55,588 nucleotides of DNA from an uncultured Desulfobulbaceae bacterium. Lineage in GTDB: Bacteria > Desulfobacterota > Desulfobulbia > Desulfobulbales > Desulfocapsaceae. The notes beneath the pieces were generated by a model that worked only from the letters and a program-made list of their open reading frames with translations, made no database searches and was not told the DNA's origin. The DNA is taken from the NCBI GenBank assembly GCA_903887485.1, contig CAISPV010000117.1, positions 1-55,588 on the forward strand, written 5' to 3'. The position numbers and the translations under genes are program-made. The stretch's first letter is position 1, and each line of letters opens with the position of its first letter. Of this stretch, positions 41,953 to 53,990 are shown in pieces.

Positions 41953-43398
41953 TTATTTGAAGTCCAGGGCTATTGGGCAGTGGTCTGATCCCTGGATGTC
42001 GGCCAGGATCTCGGCGCCAATTATTCGTGTTTTGCTGGCGGGATCAACGAAGAAATAGTCAATACGCCAGCCGATGTTCCGCTCGCGGGCATTGCTGCGG
42101 TAACTCCACCAGGAATAATTCCCCGGCTTCTGATTGTACTGCCGGAAGGTATCAATCCATCCCCCCTCGATATACGAATCCATCCATTGCCGTTCTTCAG
42201 GAGTGAAACCGGCGTTCTTTACATTGGCCTCCGGGTTGGCCAGGTCTTTTTCAGTATGGGCGACATTGAAATCACCACAGACCACCACCGATTTCGTGCG
42301 GGCCAGCTCTTCAACAAATTTCTGCACCGTGTGATTGAATTCTTGCTTGAGGTCTAACCTGCTCAGGTCGTGGCGGGAGTTGGGGAAATAACAGTTCACA
42401 AAATAGAAATCGCCAAATTCCAGGGTCAGGACTCGCCCTTCTTCGTCAAAACGGGGATCGCCAATGCCATGATAGACCTTGTCTGCCGGTACCCGGCTGT
42501 AAATGGTCACCCCGGCGTAGCCTTTTCTGCGGGCAGGATGGAAATAGCTGGTATATCCGGTTAGCTCCCGCACCGACTCCGGCAACTGTTCAGGGACGGC
42601 CTTGATCTCCTGGAGGGCCAGGATATCGGGGGCCAGCTCCCGCACGATCTCGGTGAAGCCGTTTTTGGCCACTGCCCGCAACCCATTGACATTCCAGGAG
42701 ATCATCCGCTTGATCCCGGATTGCCTTGCGGGTGGTGCTGTCCTGATCTTTCTGGGGGTTACGCCGATCCGGGGACAGAAGGCGGTAAGGACGCAGCTCT
42801 CACAGTGCGGCCCCACCGGTCGGCAGGTTCCCTGGCCAAAGGCCACCAGCAGGGAGTTGACCCGGATCCAGTAGCGTTCAGGAAGCTTTTCTCGCAGGGC
42901 CATCTCGGTCTGCAAGGGGTTTTCTGTTTGTACATAGCCCCAGATGTTCATGATCCGGTGGACATGGGTGTCGACACAGATCGCCGGCTGGCCAAACCCC
43001 TGGGCCCGAACCAGATTGGCGGTCTTCCGGCCCACGCCCGGCAGGGAAGTGAGCTGGTCGATCTCGCTTGGCACCTGCGAGGCAAATTTCTGCTCAAGGA
43101 TGGCGGGCAGGGTGGCCAGATAGCGGGCCTTGTTCTTGTAGAATCCCACCGGGTAGATGAGCTGTTGCAGGGTTTTTTCGTCGAGTGCGGCCAGGGCCTG
43201 GGGGGTAGGGGCTCTGGCAAAGAGGCGGGCGGCGGCCTGGGCGGTCACCTCATCTCTGGTCCGGGCCGAAAGGATGGTCGCCACCAGGACCTTGAAGGGG
43301 TCATGGGTCTGCACGGCAATCAGATCCACCACCGGCACCTGATAGTTCCGCACCTCCTGTTCCAGGATCTGTAAGGCCTGTTCAATATTAAAAGGCAT
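41953..43398 (-). CDS. Endonuclease III - exodeoxyribonuclease III fusion
   Basis: One frame encodes two base-excision repair enzymes. Residues about 1-215 are Nth-like: the helix-hairpin-helix LPGVGRKTANLV with catalytic Lys125, Asp143 in VDTHVHR, and the [4Fe-4S] loop Cys192-x6-Cys199-x2-Cys202-x5-Cys208. After a basic Pro-rich linker, residues 232-481 are Xth-like: MISWNVNGLRA, L-Q-E-I-K, G-D-F-N-V-A-H and S-D-H-C-P-I-A-L-D, holding the metal and catalytic residues. The start ATG at 43398 (MPFNIEQ) lacks a good ribosome binding site; ATG 43470 and GTG 43485 are alternatives. The fusion would couple glycosylase/AP lyase to AP endonuclease/3' cleaning. Confidence 0.9.
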   Translation of the reverse strand: MPFNIEQALQILEQEVRNYQVPVVDLIAVQTHDPFKVLVATILSARTRDEVTAQAAARLFARAPTPQALAALDEKTLQQLIYPVGFYKNKARYLATLPAILEQKFASQVPSEIDQLTSLPGVGRKTANLVRAQGFGQPAICVDTHVHRIMNIWGYVQTENPLQTEMALREKLPERYWIRVNSLLVAFGQGTCRPVGPHCESCVLTAFCPRIGVTPRKIRTAPPARQSGIKRMISWNVNGLRAVAKNGFTEIVRELAPDILALQEIKAVPEQLPESVRELTGYTSYFHPARRKGYAGVTIYSRVPADKVYHGIGDPRFDEEGRVLTLEFGDFYFVNCYFPNSRHDLSRLDLKQEFNHTVQKFVEELARTKSVVVCGDFNVAHTEKDLANPEANVKNAGFTPEERQWMDSYIEGGWIDTFRQYNQKPGNYSWWSYRSNARERNIGWRIDYFFVDPASKTRIIGAEILADIQGSDHCPIALDFK

Positions 43399-43515
43399 CG
43401 GCGAGTTGAAGGGGTGAAGATTAATCGTCCTGTTCTGATTTTTTATTGCATCTCGAATACCTTTTCGCATCTTTTTAACAAACACACAATACCATTCATT
43501 TTTTTCTGAAAATTA

Positions 43516-43585: not shown

Positions 43586-44281
43586 ATGGCAATGGATAAG
43601 ACATTTATCTCAATCAAGGGTGTGGCTGAAAAGCTGGGTGTTTCTGAGAAGACCATTTATCGGATGGTCGGTGACAACCAGATTCCCTTTGCGGTCAAGA
43701 TCGGCGGGCAATGGCGTTTCAAGGCCGACGAGGTCGTTGACTGGATCGACAATCAGAAACAGCCGGCCGCCACCGTACCCCGGCAAAAAACGGATTATCA
43801 TATCTCCCTGGCCTCTGCCCTGGAGAACGGGGCGGTTCTCTATCGGATCCATGGCACCAATCGGGACGAGATCATCGATGAGCTGCTGGCGGCCCTGCCC
43901 TATTCGGCCAACCTTGATCCCAAGGCCATCAAGATCTCCGTGCTGTCGCGGGAGTCGGTGGCTTCCTCCTCCATGGCCGGGATTGCCTGGATGCGCCCTG
44001 ACCCGGCCCTGCCTGTTTATCTGGAAAAGACCATGGTCATTCTTGCCTTTCTCGAACATCCTGTGGATTTCAAGGCCCTTGATCATCGGCAGACGGAGCT
44101 GATTTTTCTGGTGCTGCCCGCCAATAATACCGAGATGGCGATTATTGAACGTAAACTGTGGCGGCTCGCCATGTCCGCCCCTTTCCTGGCCGGGATCCGG
44201 GAGCAGTTGACCCGCAAAAAACTACTCGAATTCATCGTTGCCCAGGAAGGGGCTGTCTTTCACCAGGGGCCCATAAAGTGA
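43586..44281 (+). CDS. Helix-turn-helix / PTS EIIA-like regulator
   Basis: An excisionase/MerR-type helix-turn-helix (residues about 6-58, I-K-G-V-A-E-K-L-G-V-S-E-K-T-I-Y-R with a W-R-F wing) is joined to a PtsN-like EIIA type-2 domain (about 70-220). In PtsN the phosphorylated residue lies in G-I-A-I-P-H; here the aligned stretch is G-I-A-W-M-R, so Arg137 replaces the histidine. The domain therefore cannot be phosphorylated in the usual way and may sense a ligand or partner instead. It is first gene of the Ehr operon, directly before hyfB, and probably regulates it. Starts at 43586 or 43592. Confidence 0.78.
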   Translation: MAMDKTFISIKGVAEKLGVSEKTIYRMVGDNQIPFAVKIGGQWRFKADEVVDWIDNQKQPAATVPRQKTDYHISLASALENGAVLYRIHGTNRDEIIDELLAALPYSANLDPKAIKISVLSRESVASSSMAGIAWMRPDPALPVYLEKTMVILAFLEHPVDFKALDHRQTELIFLVLPANNTEMAIIERKLWRLAMSAPFLAGIREQLTRKKLLEFIVAQEGAVFHQGPIK

Positions 44282-44289
44282 ATTTGAAT

Positions 44290-46260
44290 ATGAATTTTCT
44301 TTTTTTATCCTGGCTGGTGCTGGGCCTTGGCGCCTGTGCGGCAGCCCTGCCCTGGCGTTCTTCTAAAATCACCGCCATCCTTGGCGGCGGCAGCGCTGTG
44401 CTTGGCTGCCTGTCAGGGCTGATCGCCGCCGGGCAGGGCCTGGTTGCCGATACGGCCGCAACATTTTCCCTGCCCTGGTCCATGCCGGGCGGATCGTTTT
44501 CCCTGCGTCTCGACGGGCTGTCGGCTTTTTTCCTGCTGCCGCTCTTTATCATTGGTCTGGTCGGGGCGCTGTACGGGACAGAATACATGCAGAAGGAGAA
44601 GGCGCGTCTGCACTGGACCTGGTACAATCTGCTCCTCATCTCCATGGCCATGGTGGTGACTGCGGCCAACGGTCTGCTGTTCCTCTTTGCCTGGGAGTGC
44701 ATGTCGCTCACCTCTTTTTTCCTGGTGATCACTGAATATGATCTGCCGGAGGTCGTGGCGGCCGGTTGGACCTATCTTCTGGCCACCCATCTCGGTGCGG
44801 CCTGTCTCTTTGCATTTTTCCTAACTGCCGGCGCCTTTTGCGGTAGTCTTGATTTTGCCTCTTTTCATCTCCTGAGCAGGCTCACCGGCCCGGTTATCTC
44901 TGTACTTTTTTTACTGCTGTTGGTGGGGTTTGGCAGCAAGGCCGGTATCTTTCCCTTGCATGTCTGGCTGCCGGATGCCCATCCGGCAGCGCCCAGCCAT
45001 GTCTCGGCGCTCATGAGCGGGGTCATGGTCAAGACCGCCATCTACGGCCTTCTTCGCATGTGTTCCTTCTTTCCAGTGTCCCCGGCCTGGTGGGGCGGTC
45101 TGCTGATGACAATCGGCATCACCGGGGCCCTCTTCGGCATCGCCATGGCCGCCATGCAGCGCGACGTGAAACGTAGCCTTGCTTATTCCACCGTGGAAAA
45201 TGTTGGTATCATCCTCCTGGCCCTTGGCTTCTGGATGCACAGCCGGGCCGCGGGCCAGCATGTTGTGGCCGCCCTGGCCCTGGCTGGCGGCCTGATCCAT
45301 CTCCTGAACCATGCCCTGTTTAAAAGCCTGCTTTTTCTGGGGGCCGGATCCCTGATGCACGGCAGCGGCAGCCGCGATCTGGGCCGCATGGGTGGTCTCA
45401 TGCGTCGCATGCCGGTGACCGGTCTGATGATTGTTTGCGGGGGCATGGCAATCTGCGCCTTACCGCCATTCAATGGCCTGGTCGGCGAATGGTTCATCTA
45501 CCGCGCCCTGGTGGAAAGCGCCGCCACCCTTTCCGGTCTGGGCGGTTTTTTCCCGGTCATGCTTGTCGGTTTTCTGGCCCTGGTGGGCGGTCTGGTTCTC
45601 ATTGTCATGACCCGGATTATCGGCATTGCCCTGCTGGGAGTTCCACGCAGCCCGGCGGCGGCCCAGGCGCACGAGGCTGGCTGGCCCATGCGCAGCGCCA
45701 TGATTGCTTTGGCCCTGCTCTGTCTGGCTGGTGGCCTTATGCCGATCCAGCTGCTGCGGGTGGCTGGACGGGCCGCAGTTCTGCTTGACCCTGATTCGGC
45801 ACATCTGTTTACCAGCCAGGTTATAACTCCTTCGTGGCTGGGAATCATGGCGCTTCTGCTCATAGGGGCCCTGCTGGCAGCATTCAGCTTTAACCGCTGG
45901 CGACAGGGGCGGGGGACAGTGGCTGCTGCCTCCACCTGGGGTTGCGGCTTTGCCTTTCCGTCAAGCCGCATGTCTTACAGCGCTGAGAGTTACAGTGAAC
46001 TTGCTCAAAGCGGGATCCTCTGCAGTTGTCTGACCCCGGAAAGCAGGGACGGCCGCACCATCGGCTTTTTCCCGATGATACGATCCTTTGTCTTTACTGC
46101 CCCTGATCCGGTGCTGGAAAAATTCTTCAAACCCCTGTTTCAGAGGCTCGCAGGCTATTGCCGCCGTTGCTGCCGGTTGCAGTCAGGCAATCTGCATATC
46201 TATCTACTGTATGTCTTCAGCGCCACTGTCCTGCTCCTTTTCTGGGCCGGGCAACGGTGA
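44290..46260 (+). CDS. hyfB: Ehr complex ion-pump subunit, HyfB-like (first copy)
   Basis: NuoL/MrpA-type antiporter-like subunit, 656 residues with about 14-16 hydrophobic segments. Family motifs are the central F-G-S-K-A-G-I-F-P-L-H-V-W-L-P-D-A-H-P and the later N-H-A-L-F-K-S-L-L-F-L-G-A-G. The C-terminal part carries a W-G-C-G-F motif and a cytoplasmic segment R-T-I-G-F-F-P before the last helix, as in HycC/HyfB. The ATG at 44290 is used; a GTG at 44278 overlapping the regulator stop is possible. A second HyfB-like gene ends the operon. Confidence 0.88.
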   Translation: MNFLFLSWLVLGLGACAAALPWRSSKITAILGGGSAVLGCLSGLIAAGQGLVADTAATFSLPWSMPGGSFSLRLDGLSAFFLLPLFIIGLVGALYGTEYMQKEKARLHWTWYNLLLISMAMVVTAANGLLFLFAWECMSLTSFFLVITEYDLPEVVAAGWTYLLATHLGAACLFAFFLTAGAFCGSLDFASFHLLSRLTGPVISVLFLLLLVGFGSKAGIFPLHVWLPDAHPAAPSHVSALMSGVMVKTAIYGLLRMCSFFPVSPAWWGGLLMTIGITGALFGIAMAAMQRDVKRSLAYSTVENVGIILLALGFWMHSRAAGQHVVAALALAGGLIHLLNHALFKSLLFLGAGSLMHGSGSRDLGRMGGLMRRMPVTGLMIVCGGMAICALPPFNGLVGEWFIYRALVESAATLSGLGGFFPVMLVGFLALVGGLVLIVMTRIIGIALLGVPRSPAAAQAHEAGWPMRSAMIALALLCLAGGLMPIQLLRVAGRAAVLLDPDSAHLFTSQVITPSWLGIMALLLIGALLAAFSFNRWRQGRGTVAAASTWGCGFAFPSSRMSYSAESYSELAQSGILCSCLTPESRDGRTIGFFPMIRSFVFTAPDPVLEKFFKPLFQRLAGYCRRCCRLQSGNLHIYLLYVFSATVLLLFWAGQR

Positions 46261-46286
46261 GGAGAATGATGAACCATGGATAAGAA

Positions 46287-47207
46287 ATGAGAACCACAAT
46301 ACTTCAACTGTTTCTGCATCTGTTTTTACTCTTCGGTCTTTCCCCGTTGCTGTCCGGAGTTATCGGCAAGACCAAGGCCCTTTTTGCTGGCCGCGTCGGT
46401 CCACCGCTGCTCCAGTTGTACTTTGATATCTGGAAGCTGTTTGGCAAGGGGATGGTCATCAGCCGCACCACCACCTGGATTTTCCGGGCCGGGCCGGTGG
46501 TCGGCCTTGCCGTGCCGCTGCTGGCGAGCCTCCTGATCCCCTTTGGCCCCGTCGGTGCGCCCATCTCCTTTAGCGGCGATCTGATCTTTTTTGTCTATCT
46601 CTTCGGACTGTCCCGTTTTTTCACGGCCTGCGCCGCACTGGATACCGGCTCTTCCTTTGAGGGCATGGGCGCGGTGCGTGAGGTCACTTTTTCCTGTCTG
46701 GCTGAACCCACCCTCTTTTTTGTCTTCATCGTTCTCGCCCGGCTTTCCGGTTCATTTTCACTCGATGCCATGTTCGGCCAGACCCTGGCTACCTCCTGGC
46801 ATACGGCCGCGCCATCGCTGCTGCTCATTCTGGTGTGTCTGTTCATTGTGACCCTGGTGGAGAACTGCCGTATCCCCTTTGATGATCCGAACACCCATCT
46901 CGAGTTGACCATGATCCACGAAGTCATGGTTCTTGATCACAGTGGGCCGGATCTCGGCATGATCCTGTATGGTGCGGCCATGAAATTCTTGGTCCTTGGC
47001 GCCCTGGTGGTACGGTTGTTTCTTCCCGGAACAACCGGCAATATGGCCCTTGATATCCTGTTGTTTATTGGCGGCCTACTGTTTATGGCCGTGGTTATCG
47101 GGGTGATTGAATCTGTCATGGCGCGCCTGCGGCTGCTGCGGATTCCACAACTCCTGGTGGGCGTCTCGCTGCTCTCCTTTTTCTCGCTGATCCTGCTCTT
47201 AAGGTAA
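46287..47207 (+). CDS. hyfC: Ehr complex membrane subunit, HyfC/HycD-like (NuoH family)
   Basis: A 306-residue membrane protein of the NuoH/HycD family that anchors the peripheral arm. Motifs are G-V-I-G-K-T-K-A-L-F-A-G-R-V-G-P-P near the start, the acidic loop F-E-G-M-G-A-V-R-E and V-E-N-C-R-I-P-F-D-D-P-N-T-H-L-E-L-T-M-I-H-E. About eight hydrophobic segments are seen. It follows hyfB by 26 bp. Confidence 0.92.
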   Translation: MRTTILQLFLHLFLLFGLSPLLSGVIGKTKALFAGRVGPPLLQLYFDIWKLFGKGMVISRTTTWIFRAGPVVGLAVPLLASLLIPFGPVGAPISFSGDLIFFVYLFGLSRFFTACAALDTGSSFEGMGAVREVTFSCLAEPTLFFVFIVLARLSGSFSLDAMFGQTLATSWHTAAPSLLLILVCLFIVTLVENCRIPFDDPNTHLELTMIHEVMVLDHSGPDLGMILYGAAMKFLVLGALVVRLFLPGTTGNMALDILLFIGGLLFMAVVIGVIESVMARLRLLRIPQLLVGVSLLSFFSLILLLR

Positions 47208-47210
47208 CTT

Positions 47211-47849
47211 ATGGATACTCTTCTCAATCTTCTGTTGTTGCTGGTGATCCTGCTCAACTTCTTTCTGCTGGGCAGCAGTCGCTTAGTGAGCTGTATCCGC
47301 ACGATTGCCTTCCAGGGCGGGATCCTTTCCCTGCTCCCTCTTCTCGCGCACGGATTTTCCGGTCATACGCTGTTTCTGGCCGGCGTGGCCTTTCTGCTCA
47401 AGGGGATTGCCATCCCGTACCTGCTTTTCCGGGCTATCCGTCAGGTTCATATCCGCCGGGAGGTAGAGCCATTGATCGGCTATGTACCTACCCTTATCCT
47501 CGGCACGCTGGCCACAGCCGGTGCCTTTATCTTCAGCGGTCGGTTGCCGCTGATTCCCGAACACAGTCAGTCACTTTTCGTCCCTGTTGGTCTTGCCACT
47601 CTTGCCACCGGTTTTCTCATGCTCATCAGCCGACGCAAGGCCATCACCCAGGCCCTTGGTTACCTGATCTTTGAAAACGGCATCTTTATCTTCGGTATGC
47701 TGTTGACAGAGGCCATGCCCCTTATGGTGGAGTCCGGTGTCCTGCTCGATCTGCTGGTCGGGGTCTTTGTTATGACCATTCTCATGCATCAGATCAATCG
47801 GGAATTTTCCACCATGAATACTGACAATCTTACGTCGTTAAAAGAATGA
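47211..47849 (+). CDS. hyfE: Ehr complex membrane subunit, HyfE-like
   Basis: A 212-residue membrane protein with about seven hydrophobic segments; the N-terminal half is HyfE-type and the K-A-I-T-Q-A-L-G-Y-L-I-F-E-N-G-I-F block resembles NuoK. AAGG precedes the ATG three codons after hyfC. Its stop codon TGA (47847-47849) forms the first bases of MITE-like copy B. Confidence 0.87.
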   Translation: MDTLLNLLLLLVILLNFFLLGSSRLVSCIRTIAFQGGILSLLPLLAHGFSGHTLFLAGVAFLLKGIAIPYLLFRAIRQVHIRREVEPLIGYVPTLILGTLATAGAFIFSGRLPLIPEHSQSLFVPVGLATLATGFLMLISRRKAITQALGYLIFENGIFIFGMLLTEAMPLMVESGVLLDLLVGVFVMTILMHQINREFSTMNTDNLTSLKE

Positions 47850-47976
47850 TGGCGTCGCGAAAAGTCCCAAATACTTCGTTGCGTTGCATCCTTCGTCACT
47901 GCGGCGTACCCAAAAGTACGCCTCATTCCTCAGGACTTACGCGCCTCGTCTTTGGGCCTTTTTGCTTAGCCTTATC
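47848..47976 (-). mobile_element. MITE-like palindromic element, copy B
   Basis: Same element as copy A but in opposite orientation, between hyfE and hyfF. It begins GATGGCGTCGCG at the hyfE stop and ends GCTTAGCCTTATC; the central hairpin GGCGTAC-N6-GTACGCC is kept. Its right-hand flank reads as the complement of ATCAAGGATAA, which also adjoins copy C. It would be transcribed within the operon as a long stem-loop. Confidence 0.82.
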
Positions 47977-48011
47977 CTTGATGTTTTTTTTCGAGACTAT
48001 TAAAAAATAAT

Positions 48012-49466
48012 ATGGAAAATAACCTCCTTGCACTCCTTCTCCTTCTGCCTTTCTGTGGCTCTGTACTTGCCTTTAGTCTGCCTTCAGACCGTCTTCGGCC
48101 GTTGTTGTTGCCCCTGTGCGCAACGCCGCATCTGGCGCTGACCTTCCTTGTCATCCAGTCAGGGAGGCCACTGACTACAGCTAATGGCTGGATAGGCGTT
48201 GATCCCCTCAGCCGTCTCATCCTGCCGGTCATCAGTCTGCTTTTTTTGGGCTGTTCGTTTTATGCCGTGGGCTATCTTCGTTGTCGTATCGCCTGGGGAA
48301 ACAGAAACTTTGTGGGCTGCCTGCTGCTTTTCCTCTCCGCCATGACCCTGGCGACTATATCCCGACATTTAGGGCTCCTCTGGGTGGCGGTAGAGACCAC
48401 CACCGTGGCCAGCGCCCCGCTTATCTATTATAATCGGAACCGGCTCTCTATGGAGGCCACCTGGAAATACCTGCTCCTCGGTTCGGTGGGCATTGCCCTG
48501 GCCATGCTCGGCATTCTTTTCATCGCCTACGCCGGTCTTGCCGGAGGCGAACACGTCAGCCTGCAACTTGATGATATCCTCCATGGCGCTGCCAATTACT
48601 CAAGGCCCTGGCTGAGGGCGGGCTTTGTCTTTCTTCTGGTGGGCTTTGGCCTGAAAGTAGGTTTTGCCCCCCTGCACACCTGGAAACCGGATGCCTACGG
48701 TGAGGCGCCCGGTCTGGTCGGCGCTCTCCTGGCGGGCGGGCTGACCAGTGTCGCCTTTCTGGCCCTGCTCAGGACCCTGCAGATCATGGATGCCGCCAGT
48801 GAAGCGGTCATGGCGCGTGAGGCCTTCCTGGCCATGGGTCTTCTCTCTATTGCCTTTGCTGCCGTTTTTGTCGTCCGCCAGCCTGATTTTAAGCGGATGC
48901 TGGCCTATTCCAGTGTTGAACACATGGGGATTCTCGCCATCGGGATCAGTGTCGGTGGGGTTGCCACCTTTGGGGCCATGCTCCATCTGATCAATAACGC
49001 CCTGACCAAGGGAGTGCTCTTTCTGGCGGCGGCCAATATCCATCGTCGTTTTGGCAGCAAAAAGGTGGCTGATGCCCGGGGGGCGATAAGCCTGGTGCCA
49101 CTTTCCGCCACCCTTTTTCTCCTGGGCTTTCTGGCCATTACCGGCTCGCCGCCGTTTGCGCCGTTTATCAGCGAGTTTACCATCCTGCAGGGAGTTTTCA
49201 GCAATGGCCATTTTGTGACCGGTGGTCTTTTTCTTTTCTTTCTGGCGGTTATCTTTATCGGCATGGGCAGCACCGTGCTTTCGGTTGTCTTTGGGACCCC
49301 GCCGGAGAAGACAGGCACAGGCTACGAGAACTATCGGGACACCTTTGCCACCACAGGGGTGCCATTGATTATGCTGTTGATTATCTTCGTCCTGGGGGTT
49401 TATCTGCCGGATCCTGTTCGCCATATCTGTGCTGACGCGGCCGCATTGCTGGAGGTGAGACCATGA
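48012..49466 (+). CDS. hyfF: Ehr complex ion-pump subunit, HyfF-like
   Basis: A 484-residue NuoN/NuoL-like proton-translocating subunit with about 13-14 hydrophobic segments. The central motifs are G-F-G-L-K-V-G-F-A-P-L-H-T-W-K-P-D-A and later N-N-A-L-T-K-G-V-L-F-L-A-A-A-N. It resembles HyfF rather than HyfD. No Shine-Dalgarno is apparent before 48012, which lies 36 bp after element copy B. Its stop overlaps hyfG by four bases. Confidence 0.9.
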   Translation: MENNLLALLLLLPFCGSVLAFSLPSDRLRPLLLPLCATPHLALTFLVIQSGRPLTTANGWIGVDPLSRLILPVISLLFLGCSFYAVGYLRCRIAWGNRNFVGCLLLFLSAMTLATISRHLGLLWVAVETTTVASAPLIYYNRNRLSMEATWKYLLLGSVGIALAMLGILFIAYAGLAGGEHVSLQLDDILHGAANYSRPWLRAGFVFLLVGFGLKVGFAPLHTWKPDAYGEAPGLVGALLAGGLTSVAFLALLRTLQIMDAASEAVMAREAFLAMGLLSIAFAAVFVVRQPDFKRMLAYSSVEHMGILAIGISVGGVATFGAMLHLINNALTKGVLFLAAANIHRRFGSKKVADARGAISLVPLSATLFLLGFLAITGSPPFAPFISEFTILQGVFSNGHFVTGGLFLFFLAVIFIGMGSTVLSVVFGTPPEKTGTGYENYRDTFATTGVPLIMLLIIFVLGVYLPDPVRHICADAAALLEVRP

Positions 49467-50998
49467 TGAAAAATGATCTGGAGGCGCAACTCCTGAAAAA
49501 CGGCGGGACTGTTGATCTGAGCCTGATGGAATCGCTGGGGTATGATGAATTCAGCCGTTGCCTCCTGGCTGAGGTCAAGGCCGGGGGCAGGGTAGCGGCC
49601 CTGTTTGGTGTTCCCGGGGAGGGGAAAAACGAGGGCCTGGAGTTGTTCGCCCTCATTGCCAGGGATCGTTCTGCGCAAATTGCCGTGTATCGAACCGAGG
49701 TCGGGACCAGCTTTCCCTCACTTACCCAGAGTTGTCCGCAGATCCATCTTTTTGAAAGGGAGATTGCTGAACAGTACGGGGTGACACCAACCGGTCATCC
49801 CTGGCTCAAGCCGCTGCGCTTTCATCGGGTATGGCAAGGGGATACTGATGTCTGGGGTCGCCCCCCGGACGAGCGTCCTCGGCCAGGGGACATGGAGTTC
49901 TACCGGATAGAGGGGGAGGGGGTGCATGAGGTGGCGGTCGGACCGGTGCATGCCGGGATCATCGAACCGGGCCATTTCCGTTTCCAGTGTTATGGCGAAA
50001 AGGTGATGCATCTGGAGATCTCCCTGGGCTACCAGCACCGTGCCATCGAGCCGATGCTGCTTGCTGGGCCGCATCCCTTTACCATGGCCCAGATGGAGAC
50101 CATCGCCGGCGACACCACTATCGGTCATGGGCTCGCTTATTGCCAGGTCATCGAGGCCTTGAGCGGCTGCGTGGTGCCGGAGCGGGCCCAGTCCATCCGG
50201 GCCATGGCCCTCGAGCTGGAACGACTGGCCAACCATGTGGGCGACATCGGCGCCCTGGCTGGTGATATCGGCTTTTTGCCCACCGCCTCTTTTTGCGGCC
50301 GTCTGCGCGGCGACTATCTCAACCTGAGCGCGGCCCTGTGCGGCAGTCGTTTTGGACGGGGTCTGGTGCGGCCCGGTGGGGTTCTTTTTGACCTTGACGC
50401 GACCCTCGCCAGCGGGATGCAGACCCGGATTGATGAGATTGAGGGCAATACCCTGGGTGCCCTCAATCTTTTTTTTGACGAACCTTCGGTCTTGGGCCGC
50501 CTGGAAGGCACCGGCAGGGTGTCCCGCTCGGTGGCGGAAGATCTGGGGCTGGTGGGGGTGGCTGCCAAGGCCTGCGGCGTCCCCCGCGACAGCCGTTTTT
50601 TTCACCCCACGGGTGTGTATCGGCAGCTTTTTGATGAGATGATCACTGAGGAAACGGGTGATGCCATGGCCAGGGCCCATGTCCGTCTCCGGGAGACTAT
50701 GGTCTCTATCGACCTGCTCCGGCGGATCGGCACCAGCCTGCCGGCCGGGCCGGTCAAGGTCCCGGTCGGGCCGCTCAAGGCCAATACCCTGGCGGTTTCT
50801 CTGGTGGAGGGGTGGCGGGGGGAGGTGGTTCATGTGGGCATTACTGATGCCGGCGGTCGTCTGCGGCGGTACAAGATCGTTGACCCCTCTTTTCATAATT
50901 GGAGCGGGTTGGCCATGGCCCTGCGCGATGAACAGATCTCGGATTTTCCCCTGTGTAACAAGAGCTTTGGTCTGTCTTACTGCGGGTTTGATTTATAG
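49463..50998 (+). CDS. hyfG: Ehr catalytic-type large subunit without NiFe ligands (HyfG/NuoCD-like)
   Basis: A NuoC-like N-terminal domain (about 1-130, with L-F-E-R-E-I-A-E-Q-Y-G-V) is fused to a NuoD/hydrogenase-large-subunit domain (about 150-511). In HycE/HyfG the NiFe site uses C-G-I-C-x3-H and D-P-C-x2-C. Here the aligned residues are Ala215-Gly-Asp-Thr218 with His222 kept, and Asp-Pro-Ser476-x2-Asn479, so all four ligands are missing. This marks the energy-converting hydrogenase-related (Ehr) class rather than an active hydrogenase. The site may bind quinone-like or another substrate, as in NuoD. The true redox reaction is unknown. Confidence 0.88.
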   Translation: MMKNDLEAQLLKNGGTVDLSLMESLGYDEFSRCLLAEVKAGGRVAALFGVPGEGKNEGLELFALIARDRSAQIAVYRTEVGTSFPSLTQSCPQIHLFEREIAEQYGVTPTGHPWLKPLRFHRVWQGDTDVWGRPPDERPRPGDMEFYRIEGEGVHEVAVGPVHAGIIEPGHFRFQCYGEKVMHLEISLGYQHRAIEPMLLAGPHPFTMAQMETIAGDTTIGHGLAYCQVIEALSGCVVPERAQSIRAMALELERLANHVGDIGALAGDIGFLPTASFCGRLRGDYLNLSAALCGSRFGRGLVRPGGVLFDLDATLASGMQTRIDEIEGNTLGALNLFFDEPSVLGRLEGTGRVSRSVAEDLGLVGVAAKACGVPRDSRFFHPTGVYRQLFDEMITEETGDAMARAHVRLRETMVSIDLLRRIGTSLPAGPVKVPVGPLKANTLAVSLVEGWRGEVVHVGITDAGGRLRRYKIVDPSFHNWSGLAMALRDEQISDFPLCNKSFGLSYCGFDL

Positions 50999-51042
50999 CC
51001 GAGAAAACATAAAAAATATTTCTCGTGAAAAATTCTTAAGAA

Positions 51043-51169
51043 GATGGCTAGGCAAAAAGGCCCAAAGACGAGGCGCACAAATCCTGAGGAATGAGGCGTA
51101 CAATAAGTACGCCGCAGTGACGAAGGATGCAAGTGCAACGAAGTATTTTGGACTTTTTGTAACGCCATC
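51043..51169 (+). mobile_element. MITE-like palindromic element, copy C
   Basis: Same orientation as copy A, between hyfG and the hyfH-hyfI gene. It runs from GATGGCTAGGC (51043) to GTAACGCCATC (51169); the central hairpin GGCGTAC-N5-GTACGCC is kept with a changed loop. The bases just after it (AAGGA, 51170-51174) serve as the ribosome binding site of the next gene. Confidence 0.83.
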
Positions 51170-51183
51170 AAGGATAAAATAAC

Positions 51184-51933
51184 ATGTGGCGTGTAATCAG
51201 TGAGCGATTTCATCAGGGGTTTCGGACCGGGAAATTTCCCTTGGAGGAGCCAAAGCTGCCTCCGCGCTTTCGCGGCCTGCCCCGGTTTGATGGGGAGTGT
51301 CCATCAGGCTGTCGGGCCTGTGAAGAGCTTTGTCCGTTTGGCGCCTGTGCGGTGCGGGAACGGAAGATGGCCATCGATCTTGGCCGCTGCCTGTTCTGCG
51401 CCGATTGTCCGGCCTGCCCGCAGGGCCGCATCACCTTTAGCAATGACTACCGGCTGGCGGTGCGCCGACGGCAGGATCTCCTCTACAGCGGCGGAGCATA
51501 TCCCTTGGCGGAACCCCTTGAACCTGCCCGGCTCAAGCTCTTTGGCCGCTCGCTCAAACTGCGCCAGGTCTCCGCGGGCGGTTGCAACGCCTGCGAGGCC
51601 GACTGCAACGTGCTCAATACTTTGGTCTTTGACCTTGGCCGTTTCGGCATTCAGTTTGTCGCCTCGCCCCGCCACGCCGACGGGATCCTGCTTACCGGGC
51701 CGGTCACCGAGAATATGCGCAGCGCGGTGCTGGACACCTATGAGGCGGTGCCTGGACCCAAGGTCGTCATTGCGGTCGGGGCCTGCGGGGTCAACGGCGG
51801 GCCTTTTGTCGACAGCCCTGAAACCAATCAGGGGCTGGGAACATTGTTGCCCGTGGATCTTTATATTCCGGGCTGTCCACCGCATCCTTACACCATCCTT
51901 GACGGCCTGCTGCGGCTGCTTGGCAGAAGGTAA
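51184..51933 (+). CDS. hyfI: Ehr electron-transfer subunit: HyfH-HyfI fusion
   Basis: The first ~105 residues match HycF/HyfH ferredoxins (F-R-G-L-P opening, Cys39/43/46/50, then D-L-G-R-C-L-F-C with Cys69/72/75/78). The rest is a NuoB/HyfI-type small subunit with proximal-cluster ligands Cys134, Cys137 (G-G-C-N-A-C), Cys201 (V-G-A-C-G) and Cys231 (P-G-C-P-P-H-P). The 249-residue protein can thus hold three [4Fe-4S] clusters leading to the large subunit. No separate hyfH or hyfA gene is present in the operon. AAGGA lies nine bases before the ATG. Confidence 0.9.
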   Translation: MWRVISERFHQGFRTGKFPLEEPKLPPRFRGLPRFDGECPSGCRACEELCPFGACAVRERKMAIDLGRCLFCADCPACPQGRITFSNDYRLAVRRRQDLLYSGGAYPLAEPLEPARLKLFGRSLKLRQVSAGGCNACEADCNVLNTLVFDLGRFGIQFVASPRHADGILLTGPVTENMRSAVLDTYEAVPGPKVVIAVGACGVNGGPFVDSPETNQGLGTLLPVDLYIPGCPPHPYTILDGLLRLLGRR

Positions 51934-51950
51934 GGGAGGGGGCAGAAAGC

Positions 51951-53990
51951 ATGGCTGAACTCTTTCTTGCTGCCCTCATCCTGATATTCTGTTCCGGTCT
52001 GCCGGCCCTGGTCTGCGGTCGCTCTTCCACCGGGACGATCCCTGCCGCGAGCGATACTGGGCCAGCCCCGGCCTGCGATCGCTGGGGCCGACGCGGTGAG
52101 CTGGCCTCGGTTATCCTGCTGGTATTGGGGGTCTCTCTGGCCCTTGTTGCAACGCTTGCCGCTGTCCGGCAGGTGCCATCACCCATCCTGGCCCTTGCAT
52201 GGGCGCATCCAGCCGGTCGGTTTGTCCTGGAGCTGGATGGAATTGCCGTGCTCTTTCTCCTGCCGGCCCTGGTCATCCTGGGCATGGGAGGTATCTACGG
52301 CCTTGGCTACTTTCCCCAGGCCAAGGCCGGGCCGGTGGCAGGCAGGGTTCGTTTTTTTTACGGCATATTGGGCGCCTCCGTTGCCCTCCTGCCGGTCTGT
52401 CGTAATGGTATTCTCTTTCTCATGGCCTGGGAGGTCATGGCCCTCAGTTGTTTTTTCCTGATCCTCACCGACCAAAAGGAGGAGTCAGCCCGCCGGGCCG
52501 CCTACGTCTATCTGATGGCGACCCATGCCGGAACCCTGGCCCTCTTTGCCCTGTTCATCCTGCTGGCGGGCAGCAGCGGCAACATGGATTTTCCCCAAGC
52601 CGCGACCTTGCCGGGGGCAACGGTCACTGCCGGTGCGGTTTTTCTCCTGGCCTTGTTCGGCTTCGGGATGAAAGCGGGCATGATGCCGCTCCACTTCTGG
52701 CTGCCGGCCGCCCACGCCAACGCGCCCACTCATGTCTCCGCTTTCATGAGCGGGGTGATGATCAAGATGGGGATTTACGGTCTGGTGCGCATCACCAGCT
52801 TTTACAGCACTCCACCTGCCTGGTGGGGCTGGACTGTCCTGGCGCTGGGGGTGACTTCGGCCATCATGGGTGTGGTCTTTGCCTTGGCCCAGCATGATAT
52901 CAAGCGTCTGCTCGCCTATCATAGCGTCGAAAATATCGGCATCATTCTCATCGGTCTGGGTTGCGCCCTGCTGGGGCAGAGCTTTCACCATCCTTCGGTG
53001 GTGGCCCTTGGTCTGGCCGGGGCCTTGCTCCATGTGGTCAATCATGGCCTGTTCAAGTCCCTGCTTTTTCTCGGTGCGGGTTCGGTGATCCAGGCCACCG
53101 GAACGCGGATGATCGATCATTACGGCGGGTTGCTGCGGGCCATGCCGTACACCGCCTTTTTCTTTCTGGGCGGGGCGGTGGCCATCTGCGGGCTGCCGCC
53201 GCTCAACGGTTTTGTCAGCGAATGGTTGATTTACCTTGGCCTGCTGCACAGTCAGACGGAGGGCACGATTTTCCCGCTTTCCCTGGCCGTGCTGGCCATC
53301 CCCGCCCTGGCCATGACCGGGGCTTTGGCCTTGGCCTGTTTTGTCAAGGTCTTCGGTGTTACCTTTTTGGGAACAGCGCGTCAGGAGTTTCAGAACCCGC
53401 CCCATGAAGCGCCTGGCAGCATGCTCCTGCCCATGGCCGTGCTTTTTCTCGGCTGTCTGACTATCGGTCTGATGCCATGGGCCATTGTTCCTCTGTTGCA
53501 GCGGGGAAACGGCTCCTGGCTGGGGACGGGATCACTTGCTGTACCGCTTCTCACCACCCTGGCGCCGGTAACCTGGATCAGTGTCGGTGCCGTTCTGCTG
53601 CTGGGGATCATCGGCGTTGTCTGGTACTGGCAAAGCTTTCCTGAAGATGACTGGCAGCGGCGTCCTGCTACCTGGGGCTGTGGCTATATCAAGGGAACGG
53701 CCCGGATGCAATACACCGCCTCCTCCTTTGCCGAACAGCTCGTCCGCCTCTTCCACTGGGGGTTATGGAGTGATATCTCCGCAGGACGGACCATTGGTTT
53801 TTTCCCATCCCTGGCCCGTTTTGCCGATCACACCCCCGATGTTGTCCTTGATCGTCTGTTGTATCCCATCTTCCGCGCCCTGACCAAGGCGGCCTTTCTC
53901 GTCCGTTCGTTTTTCCACCAGGGCCGGATTAACGTCTATCTGCTCTATTGCGCCCTGACCCTTTGTCTGCTGCTGATCTGGATTATTTGA
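51951..53990 (+). CDS. hyfB2: Ehr complex ion-pump subunit, HyfB-like (second copy)
   Basis: A 679-residue antiporter-like subunit with the same plan as the first HyfB: G-F-G-M-K-A-G-M-M-P-L-H-F-W-L-P-A-A-H-A, N-H-G-L-F-K-S-L-L-F-L-G-A-G, a late W-G-C-G-Y and R-T-I-G-F-F-P before the terminal helix. The two copies clearly differ in sequence, so the duplication is not recent. A strong GGAGGGGG precedes the ATG. With HyfB and HyfF it gives the complex three potential ion-translocating subunits. It is the last gene of the operon. Confidence 0.9.
   Translation: MAELFLAALILIFCSGLPALVCGRSSTGTIPAASDTGPAPACDRWGRRGELASVILLVLGVSLALVATLAAVRQVPSPILALAWAHPAGRFVLELDGIAVLFLLPALVILGMGGIYGLGYFPQAKAGPVAGRVRFFYGILGASVALLPVCRNGILFLMAWEVMALSCFFLILTDQKEESARRAAYVYLMATHAGTLALFALFILLAGSSGNMDFPQAATLPGATVTAGAVFLLALFGFGMKAGMMPLHFWLPAAHANAPTHVSAFMSGVMIKMGIYGLVRITSFYSTPPAWWGWTVLALGVTSAIMGVVFALAQHDIKRLLAYHSVENIGIILIGLGCALLGQSFHHPSVVALGLAGALLHVVNHGLFKSLLFLGAGSVIQATGTRMIDHYGGLLRAMPYTAFFFLGGAVAICGLPPLNGFVSEWLIYLGLLHSQTEGTIFPLSLAVLAIPALAMTGALALACFVKVFGVTFLGTARQEFQNPPHEAPGSMLLPMAVLFLGCLTIGLMPWAIVPLLQRGNGSWLGTGSLAVPLLTTLAPVTWISVGAVLLLGIIGVVWYWQSFPEDDWQRRPATWGCGYIKGTARMQYTASSFAEQLVRLFHWGLWSDISAGRTIGFFPSLARFADHTPDVVLDRLLYPIFRALTKAAFLVRSFFHQGRINVYLLYCALTLCLLLIWII

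Follow-up and report, generated by a model that had tools for sequence, protein, structure and literature searches.

Background

Ehr complexes are relatives of the group 4 [NiFe] hydrogenases and of respiratory complex I that carry Mrp/NuoL-type membrane subunits and a large subunit without the NiFe-binding CxxC motifs (a definition taken from the available parts of PMC4378227 and PMC10284858). In their accessible text, PMC6349859, PMC10284858, PMC4378227 and PMC10432482 describe Ehr as lacking the NiFe motifs and state its function to be unknown, and the last three of these date from 2014 to 2023. The complexes occur in many phyla, including model Geobacter and comammox Nitrospira. Here we describe an ehr operon (positions 43586-53990, plus strand) in a 55,588-nucleotide contig stretch from an uncultured Desulfobulbaceae bacterium, the whole of which is called the window below. 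With a probability of roughly 0.68, we consider that this operon encodes an Ehr complex that is a redox-driven ion pump, built like formate hydrogenlyase (FHL) and complex I, and not a hydrogenase.

The Ehr locus of Geobacter sulfurreducens (GSU0739-0745; ehrA-1, ehrA-2, B, C, D, L and S) has, like that of the window, seven genes with two NuoL-like A subunits. It has been published as lacking a NiFe centre in the available text of PMC7894505 and PMC13194489, and proteomic data on it appear in the available portions of PMC7894505 and PMC8691401. Going by published labels only, as far as they are given in the accessible text, KN400_0713 (ehrA-2) and KN400_0718 (ehrB) would fit the gene order of the window. 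In the named Geobacter loci the second A gene is either divergent together with a regulator or upstream in tandem, whereas in the window it follows ehrS. The two HyfB-type subunits were therefore rejected as a novelty, since the Geobacter operon is published with both ehrA-1 and ehrA-2, at least in the parts available. The Ehr class and the two-A architecture are already known; what is new here is a strict replacement site in the large subunit and a linkage of Ehr to a carbonic-anhydrase-like gene.

Ehr also resembles the Hyf and Hyc systems of Escherichia coli, with homologues of HyfB, C, E, F, G, H and I, and HycE is the nearest solved structure by sequence (7z0s_E, 5.3e-44). Hyf has HyfD where Ehr has the second HyfB-type subunit, and Ehr differs from both Hyf and Hyc in lacking the four Cys and the C-terminal tail and in having H and I fused. 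A further likeness, found by sequence, is to the Pyrococcus MBS, a group 4 relative that is not a hydrogenase, with 6u8y_L matching EhrL at 3.0e-20. We take 6u8y, labelled NADH dehydrogenase subunit D in the structure table, to be this MBS, a sulfane sulfur reductase; MbsL presumably keeps one Cys pair, while Ehr keeps none.

Results and discussion

The genes form a single tightly packed operon in the order HTH-IIA regulator-ehrA1-B-C-D-L-S-A2, with gaps of -4, 26, 3, 162, -4, 185 and 17 bp from the regulator to ehrA2. Its features, all on the plus strand, are as follows (codon positions computed from the ehrL start at 49463).

43586..44281, plus strand: ehr-linked regulator with HTH_17 and PTS IIA-like domains (Pfam HTH_17 1.1e-13, PTS_EIIA_2 6.3e-07)
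44278..46260, plus strand: ehrA1, HyfB/NuoL-type antiporter subunit (Proton_antipo_M 1.5e-52); pump residues E140, K221, K298, H341, H345, K349, E404
46287..47207, plus strand: ehrB, NuoH/HyfC-type membrane subunit (NADHdh 3.3e-38)
47211..47849, plus strand: ehrC, HyfE-type membrane subunit (hydrogenase 4 membrane subunit model 2.3e-24, under its cut-off)
48012..49466, plus strand: ehrD, HyfF/NuoN-type antiporter subunit (Proton_antipo_M 1.9e-50)
49463..50998, plus strand: ehrL, fused NuoC-NuoD/HyfG-type large subunit without NiFe ligands (Complex1_49kDa 3.9e-32, Complex1_30kDa 1.8e-07)
50105..50116, plus strand: codons Ala215-Gly216-Asp217-Thr218 of ehrL, replacing the first CxxC (alignment)
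50957..50995, plus strand: codons Asn499 to Leu511 of ehrL (NKSFGLSYCGFDL), the C-terminal end that replaces DPCxxC (alignment)
51184..51933, plus strand: ehrS, 2[4Fe-4S] ferredoxin domain plus NuoB/HyfI-type small subunit (Oxidored_q6 1.5e-26; 12 presumed cluster Cys)
51951..53990, plus strand: ehrA2, second HyfB/NuoL-type antiporter subunit (Proton_antipo_M 1.5e-54), 17 bp after ehrS; pump residues E161, K241, K318, H361, H365, K369, E424

The subunit set first proposed for this locus (B, C, E, F, G, a fused H-I and a second B) is thus confirmed in both genes and order, as is the count of three antiporter-type subunits, with A1, D and A2 each matching Proton_antipo_M. Because its start lies 17 bp after ehrS on the same strand, ehrA2 is very likely co-transcribed with the rest of the operon, and the separate transcript for the second hyfB that the initial annotation had named as evidence against its proposal is improbable in the window.

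The large subunit

Alignments of EhrL with E. coli HycE, HyfG and NuoCD, made with HMMER and MAFFT, place Ala215, Thr218, Ser505 and Gly508 in the four NiFe ligand columns. The initial annotation had named Ala215/Thr218 and Ser476/Asn479. The first pair does occupy the columns of the first CxxC, but the second pair was misplaced, as the true columns are Ser505/Gly508 at the extreme C-terminus; Ser476 and Asn479 lie within DPSFHNW, aligned to AATYANW of HycE, and were rejected as ligand positions. Cys507 adjoins the Ser505/Gly508 columns, so that even with a one-residue shift at most one of the four Cys could be claimed. EhrL also terminates at Leu511, with 0 residues past the motif compared with a 32-residue tail in HyfG and HycE. 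It therefore has neither the four Cys ligands of a group 4 [NiFe] hydrogenase nor the C-terminal tail that the maturation protease cleaves. In the same alignments, E. coli K-12 HyfG (L112) was seen to lack a stretch of about 16 residues that is present in HycE.

The ligands are missing from all the Ehr large subunits sampled. Our main sample holds 107 EhrL rows, of which 105 are distinct (the genes L013/L118 and L121/L030 each being entered twice) and one, L028, filed with the sister type described below, is a window-type fragment; 103 of the distinct sequences reach the C-terminus. No row has a Cys in any ligand column, the residues there being ATSG in 95, ASSG, STSG and SSSG in 3 each, GSSG in 1, and only AT in 2 that are truncated. 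In place of the ligands we describe one strict site, made up of Gly216-Asp217 (105 of 105 distinct sequences), Asn499-Lys500-Ser501 and Ser505-Tyr506-x-Gly508-x-Asp510 (103 of 103 that reach the C-terminus). Residues specific to Ehr, relative to four NiFe and two Nuo rows, include D217, N257, G260, D261, W451, D474, F495, N499, K500, S505 and G508, and the conserved site offers a guide to mutation targets. The motif is found as well in plasmid-borne relatives from Variovorax, Rhodococcus, Rhizobium, Bradyrhizobium, Methylovirgula, Azospirillum thermophilum, Cupriavidus and Paraburkholderia, all presumably aerobes by lifestyle. Departures from it are small, such as Asn at position 505 in Paraburkholderia and GE in place of GD in Allomeiothermus.

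This conservation argues against decay. A decayed hydrogenase under relaxed selection would be consistent with the loss of all NiFe ligands, and the Geobacter Ehr is called nonfunctional in the available text of PMC13194489, but a published view of Ehr as a nonfunctional relic does not fit the conservation of the replacement site. Moreover, many phyla share this site, the proximal Fe-S ligands and the pump residues with hardly any variation, and the A subunits have repeatedly been duplicated and kept. We regard decay as highly improbable.

The quinone-binding residues of complex I have been replaced as well. In NuoD these are, we assume, Tyr87 and His38 (Thermus numbering), and the corresponding EhrL columns hold Gly216 and Ile167, both invariant in the Ehr sample. 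With the four ligand columns and the Tyr/His columns all replaced, the EhrL site does not, as far as alignment can tell, correspond to a NiFe site or to the usual quinone site. These columns bear on the possibility that Ehr acts as a short complex I, a ferredoxin:menaquinone oxidoreductase whose quinone site has been reshaped. The fold of EhrL is similar to that of NuoCD, and the quinone chamber of complex I is formed by NuoH and by parts of NuoB and NuoD, which would suit this proposal. The invariant Gly216 and Ile167 speak against it, however, as does the nuo cluster that the window organism has of its own, and we consider it doubtful.

Fold and phylogeny agree with the assignment to Ehr. 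An AlphaFold model of EhrL built from 24 sequences (mean pLDDT 83.7) had FHL HycE as its best fold match (7z0s_E, E 3.0e-31, TM 0.84), with NuoCD of complex I behind. In a tree of 40 hand-chosen rows, 33 Ehr-like large subunits were split from 5 NiFe enzymes and 2 NuoD by a branch with 100/100 support, the NiFe rows being few and including no reference Ech, Mbh or MBS sequence. The proposal that the complex is Ehr-type rather than a hydrogenase is supported by this split, and in the phylogeny called for at the outset the large subunit did not nest inside active NiFe hydrogenases, within the small NiFe sample used. The window operon is a genuine Ehr operon of already known architecture: its subunits are homologous to those of group 4 hydrogenases and complex I, Mrp/NuoL-type membrane subunits included, its large subunit lacks the CxxC motifs, and that subunit groups with other Ehr apart from the NiFe enzymes. 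The rows of Mycobacterium branderi and Alicyclobacillus were long branches that met in the tree.

Electron entry and proposed mechanism

EhrS is a HycF/HyfH-like ferredoxin domain fused to a NuoB domain. Its Cys ligands were followed in 99 rows that cover at least 80% of the window protein, so that small subunits consisting of NuoB only were dropped from this count. Cys134, 137, 201 and 231, the ligands of the proximal cluster, are each present in 97 or 98 of the 99 rows. In the ferredoxin domain Cys50, 69 and 72 occur in all 99, Cys46 in 90, and Cys75 in each of the 95 that are not gapped at that position; Cys39 is found in 71 of 99, Cys43 in 71 of 97 and Cys78 in 75 of 98.

We infer the donor, the acceptor and the direction of the reaction as follows. 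A low-potential carrier such as ferredoxin would reduce both N-terminal clusters of EhrS. Electrons would move on through the proximal cluster of its NuoB domain and reach a small polar substrate in EhrL, at the former position of the NiFe centre. This substrate may be held by the conserved Gly-Asp and Asn-Lys-Ser...Ser-Tyr-x-Gly-x-Asp residues, and the reaction would power the movement of ions through EhrB and the three antiporter subunits (D, A1 and A2). Our best lead on the substrate is inorganic carbon, since several relatives have a carbonic-anhydrase-like gene at the head of the operon, as discussed below.

Several observations weigh against a ferredoxin-fed ion pump of this kind. Cys39 and Cys43 are each absent from about a quarter of the EhrS rows, and in several Ehr, divergent or plasmid-borne, the small subunit consists of NuoB alone; ferredoxin entry is therefore not universal, and ferredoxin is a plausible donor for the window complex, not for Ehr in general. 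The large subunits encoded on plasmids of M. branderi (L224) and Alicyclobacillus (L225) have neither the NiFe ligands nor the Ehr motif, and may represent a second kind of ligand-free site. Residues 501-511 of the EhrL model have a pLDDT below 50, too low to define the geometry of the pocket. The window D subunit has the same pump residues as the A subunits except for Asn at the second His and Ser in the column of NuoM K265. Within the operon we found no donor or acceptor gene, and our search returned no expression or biochemical evidence for the window organism.

The membrane arm

Pump residues were compared in 51 A sequences taken from the window (A1 and A2) and from 29 chosen loci. At the positions that match NuoL E144, K229, K305, H334, H338, K342 and K399, all 51 have E, K, K, H, H, K and E, respectively, and 49 have Lys at that of NuoM K265. 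It had been suggested that two HyfB-type pumps plus HyfF would give a long membrane arm, perhaps moving more ions per turnover than Hyf. Neither a longer arm nor more pumping than in Hyf is supported, since the E. coli complex, with HyfD beside HyfB and HyfF, likewise has three subunits of antiporter type.

Nor are both hyfB genes always kept together in relatives. We counted A genes in 80 named loci with flanks of up to 10 kb, picking operons by the length of flank beyond the subunit genes. Where at least 2.5 kb was available at both ends (38 of the 80), 15 operons had two A genes, 22 had one and 1 had none; requiring 1 kb upstream only gave 21, 24 and 1, respectively (n=46). In 4 of 46 operons from another selection, one that favours regulator-bearing operons, the second A was divergent, together with the regulator. 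A tree of the A subunits, made by a quick method with SH-aLRT support only, places A1 and A2 of Desulfobulbales/Desulfuromonadales-type operons in two separate groups and has separate duplications in a Planctomycetes-Spirochaetes-Kiritimatiellae-Latescibacterota set and in Geobacter. The first A is absent from two close relatives of the window (L034 and L035) and from Desulfobulbus Tol-SR (L048). On this evidence, duplication of HyfB arose several times and is dispensable. Repeated gain of a HyfB-type subunit on one core provides a natural series in which to ask whether more antiporter subunits move more ions per electron pair. One locus, L123 (G044), has the arrangement regulator-A-B-C-D-L-S-A-A, with three HyfB-type and four antiporter subunits in all.

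Host genome and neighbouring genes

The window genome (3.19 Mb, 97.7% complete) has one 49-kDa-type gene besides ehrL, its own NuoD. The nuo cluster (L115:10661-17173) encodes two proteins with antiporter subunit D as best NCBIfam model, a NuoM and a NuoN-like protein, which gives this complex I cluster four antiporter-type subunits. The five nearest named relatives of EhrL, at 86-91% identity, are all metagenome-assembled genomes, labelled Desulfocapsaceae (two), Desulfobulbaceae, Desulfoarculaceae and Proteobacteria.

The initial annotation had also noted that no formate dehydrogenase, maturation or hydrogenase assembly genes lie nearby. This holds for the 20 window proteins scanned with Pfam, other window open reading frames (ORFs) lying outside that scan, but HypD and NiFe hydrogenases are encoded on other contigs of the genome, and the organism is therefore probably able to mature NiFe sites. 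Formate enters through two publications: Ehr subunits are more abundant in Geobacter on formate (available text of PMC7894505), and a complex of formate dehydrogenase with Ehr was proposed for Riflemargulisbacteria (available text of PMC6349859). A formate-driven pump that does not make hydrogen would agree with both, yet formate dehydrogenase was absent from the 20 scanned window proteins, and no family of this kind recurred (in two or more) among 111 nearest neighbours of other ehr loci, more distant genes lying outside that scan. We therefore find such a pump unlikely. These neighbours, 111 of the 112 flanking loci L036-L111 (one gene per side where the flank exceeded 1.2 kb, one giant ORF of L087 being left out), were picked by a method that is crude in GC-rich DNA, so that some may be spurious ORFs. 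A conserved donor gene beside the operon was likewise rejected, as the commonest family accounted for only 3 of the 111.

Linkage to a carbonic-anhydrase-like gene

The genus of the window organism has a second, sister type of ehr, with a single A and an EhrL 47-50% identical to that of the window. In two congeners (L034/L136 and L035/L140) the sister ehr lies directly upstream of a window-type ehr with a SulP transporter between them, and the window-type cluster downstream lacks the first A subunit and the regulator. Upstream of the sister type, in 12 of 18 fetched loci (one being a distant copy), is a gene of about 393 codons that we call F393. Across 257 genomes of the order, with sister-type EhrL defined as at least 56% identical to that of L136, F393 was present in 69 genomes as used (70 by tally), sister-type EhrL in 92 and the two together in 55 (Fisher odds 16, p 1e-18, with no correction for relatedness). 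Within 15 kb of a sister-type EhrL there were 42 copies in 41 genomes, every one on the same strand. Upstream copies numbered 38, of which 37 were at 5.0-5.8 kb with A-B-C-D between and the other, a second copy, at 7.8 kb; the remaining 4 were 1.1-1.2 kb downstream. Where both genes stood on one contig they were never farther apart, and chance alone should yield about 0.5 such pairings in the 55 genomes that have the two (a rough figure for 3.5-Mb genomes). Seven copies from one genus, of only 26-35% identity, occupy the same position.

The linkage extends beyond the order. F393 was found in 11 of 395 genomes sampled from the phylum, and in two genera of one family (L240 and L238) it heads an operon of F393-HTH-IIA-A-A-B-C-D-L-S, which like that of the window has the regulator and two A genes, here in tandem, 28 bp separating F393 from the regulator in L240. 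The second A of the L238 operon is split over three ORFs (L238:11495-13493), through assembly error or decay. F393 also adjoins the sister type in L241 and, judging by an A fragment at the contig end, in L233. Six genomes outside the order carry F393 at 72-80% identity. In four of them it adjoins ehr, in one it is at a contig end and in one it is by a SulP-like gene (126 bits) with no Ehr in the stretch; of four weak matches there, the two inspected had no Ehr beside them. At L202, L204 and L239 F393 occurs without Ehr in the stretch, beside genes like those for Na+/anion or Na+/H+ transporters (by eye in L202) or SulP. F393 is thus not confined to Ehr: unlinked copies have other ion-transporter or signalling genes as neighbours.

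We read F393 as a divergent, putative LCIB-type carbonic anhydrase. Three of three close homologues scored 17.1-18.6 bits against Pfam LCIB_C_CA, and the phylum sample up to 22.0, which is below the curated cut-off of 25. Alignment by hhalign with seven LCIB-family proteins of the phylum (probability 92.9, E 3.8e-07, 107 columns) matched Cys-x-Asp-Glu, the His of SHV and the Cys of CG, and C54, D56, H106 and C133, invariant in 7 F393 sequences, align with C45, D47, H104 and C127 of the LCIB family. We take these Cys, Asp, His and Cys to be the LCIB active-site residues. Single and profile searches of F393 against PDB sequences gave no match up to E 10. The distant copy at L118 was rejected as an LCIB, with no significant match by Pfam or profile comparison.

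Ehr might accordingly be an energy-coupled inorganic-carbon device, in which redox chemistry (or the proton motive force) drives the antiporter arm and a carbonic-anhydrase-like partner makes the interconversion of CO2 and HCO3- vectorial, the partner being missing or replaced in the window species. The cyanobacterial NDH-1MS/CupA and the DAB system (DabA-DabB) similarly pair a NuoL-type subunit with a carbonic-anhydrase-like protein, according to the available text on them. This likeness applies only to the Ehr relatives linked to F393, which differ in having an LCIB-like protein and a hydrogenase-like L/S module, and the window genome has neither F393 nor LCIB. The linkage in 41 genomes, the F393-led operons of two further genera, the resemblance to LCIB and the SulP transporters that adjoin 6 of the 18 sister-type loci all favour such a device. 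So would an A. caldus hyfBCEFG cluster that adjoins a beta carbonic anhydrase, although it was read there as H2-evolving (available text of PMC3826726).

Against this, searches of the window genome for F393 or LCIB gave no match, and its two beta carbonic anhydrases are on other contigs than ehr. F393 was in none of the 80 named loci (flanks up to 10 kb), and no family recurred among the 111 scanned neighbours. Sister-type EhrL occurs without F393 in 37 of 92 genomes and F393 without the sister type in 14 of 69, the anhydrase activity of F393 is a prediction, with neither a PDB match nor LCIB likeness in the distant copy, and hydration of CO2 does not need electrons. We hold the device to be a tentative possibility. 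More speculatively still, Ehr may be redox-powered inorganic-carbon machines of anaerobes, pumps with a remade site that together with an LCIB-type carbonic anhydrase (and in some cases SulP) convert or import CO2 or HCO3-; this would be an analogue of NDH-1MS derived from a former hydrogenase, whose window member lost or exchanged the linked anhydrase.

For parts of the Ehr family inorganic carbon is thus a strong lead. For the window it is only a possibility, given a genome without F393 or LCIB, unlinked beta carbonic anhydrases and 80 named loci without F393, although a role of the redox-driven pump proposed here in inorganic-carbon or pH handling is plausible. Among the matches listed in our literature search, which left subscription journals mostly outside, no title or abstract linked Ehr to LCIB, and a paper on DAB2 mentions LCIB solely in a reference, in the text available (PMC13144422). 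With its link to a carbonic-anhydrase-like gene, Ehr now has one definite candidate function that experiments could address.

Regulator and minor features

The product of 43586-44281 is a regulator and no subunit of the complex. An HTH-IIA gene of this kind heads most operons: among the named ones, 40 of 50 have it when 2.5 kb or more of sequence is required ahead of the subunit genes, and 49 of 60 when 1 kb is required. The PTS IIA-like motif [ILV]A[ILMV]PH is kept in 47 of 59 aligned homologues; the 12 without the IIA histidine motif are the window and its near relatives. The ehr operon may therefore generally be under PTS-type phosphorylation or ligand control, with phosphorylation presumably lost in the window clade. 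The Geobacter regulator, in contrast to that of this clade, keeps the histidine.

The start of ehrA1 is a GTG overlapping the regulator stop, and an ATG is present at 44290. Its product scores 536.6 bits with the hydrogenase 4 subunit B model, under the cut-off of 667; ehrD matches the subunit F model at 3.6e-90, also under its cut-off, and ehrC had no match in the Pfam scan. A simple promoter and terminator scan of the operon gave nothing decisive. Upstream, on the minus strand (41953-43485), a single ORF joins an endonuclease III-like part (residues 38-228) to an exodeoxyribonuclease III (residues 260-510), an unusual fusion of repair genes.

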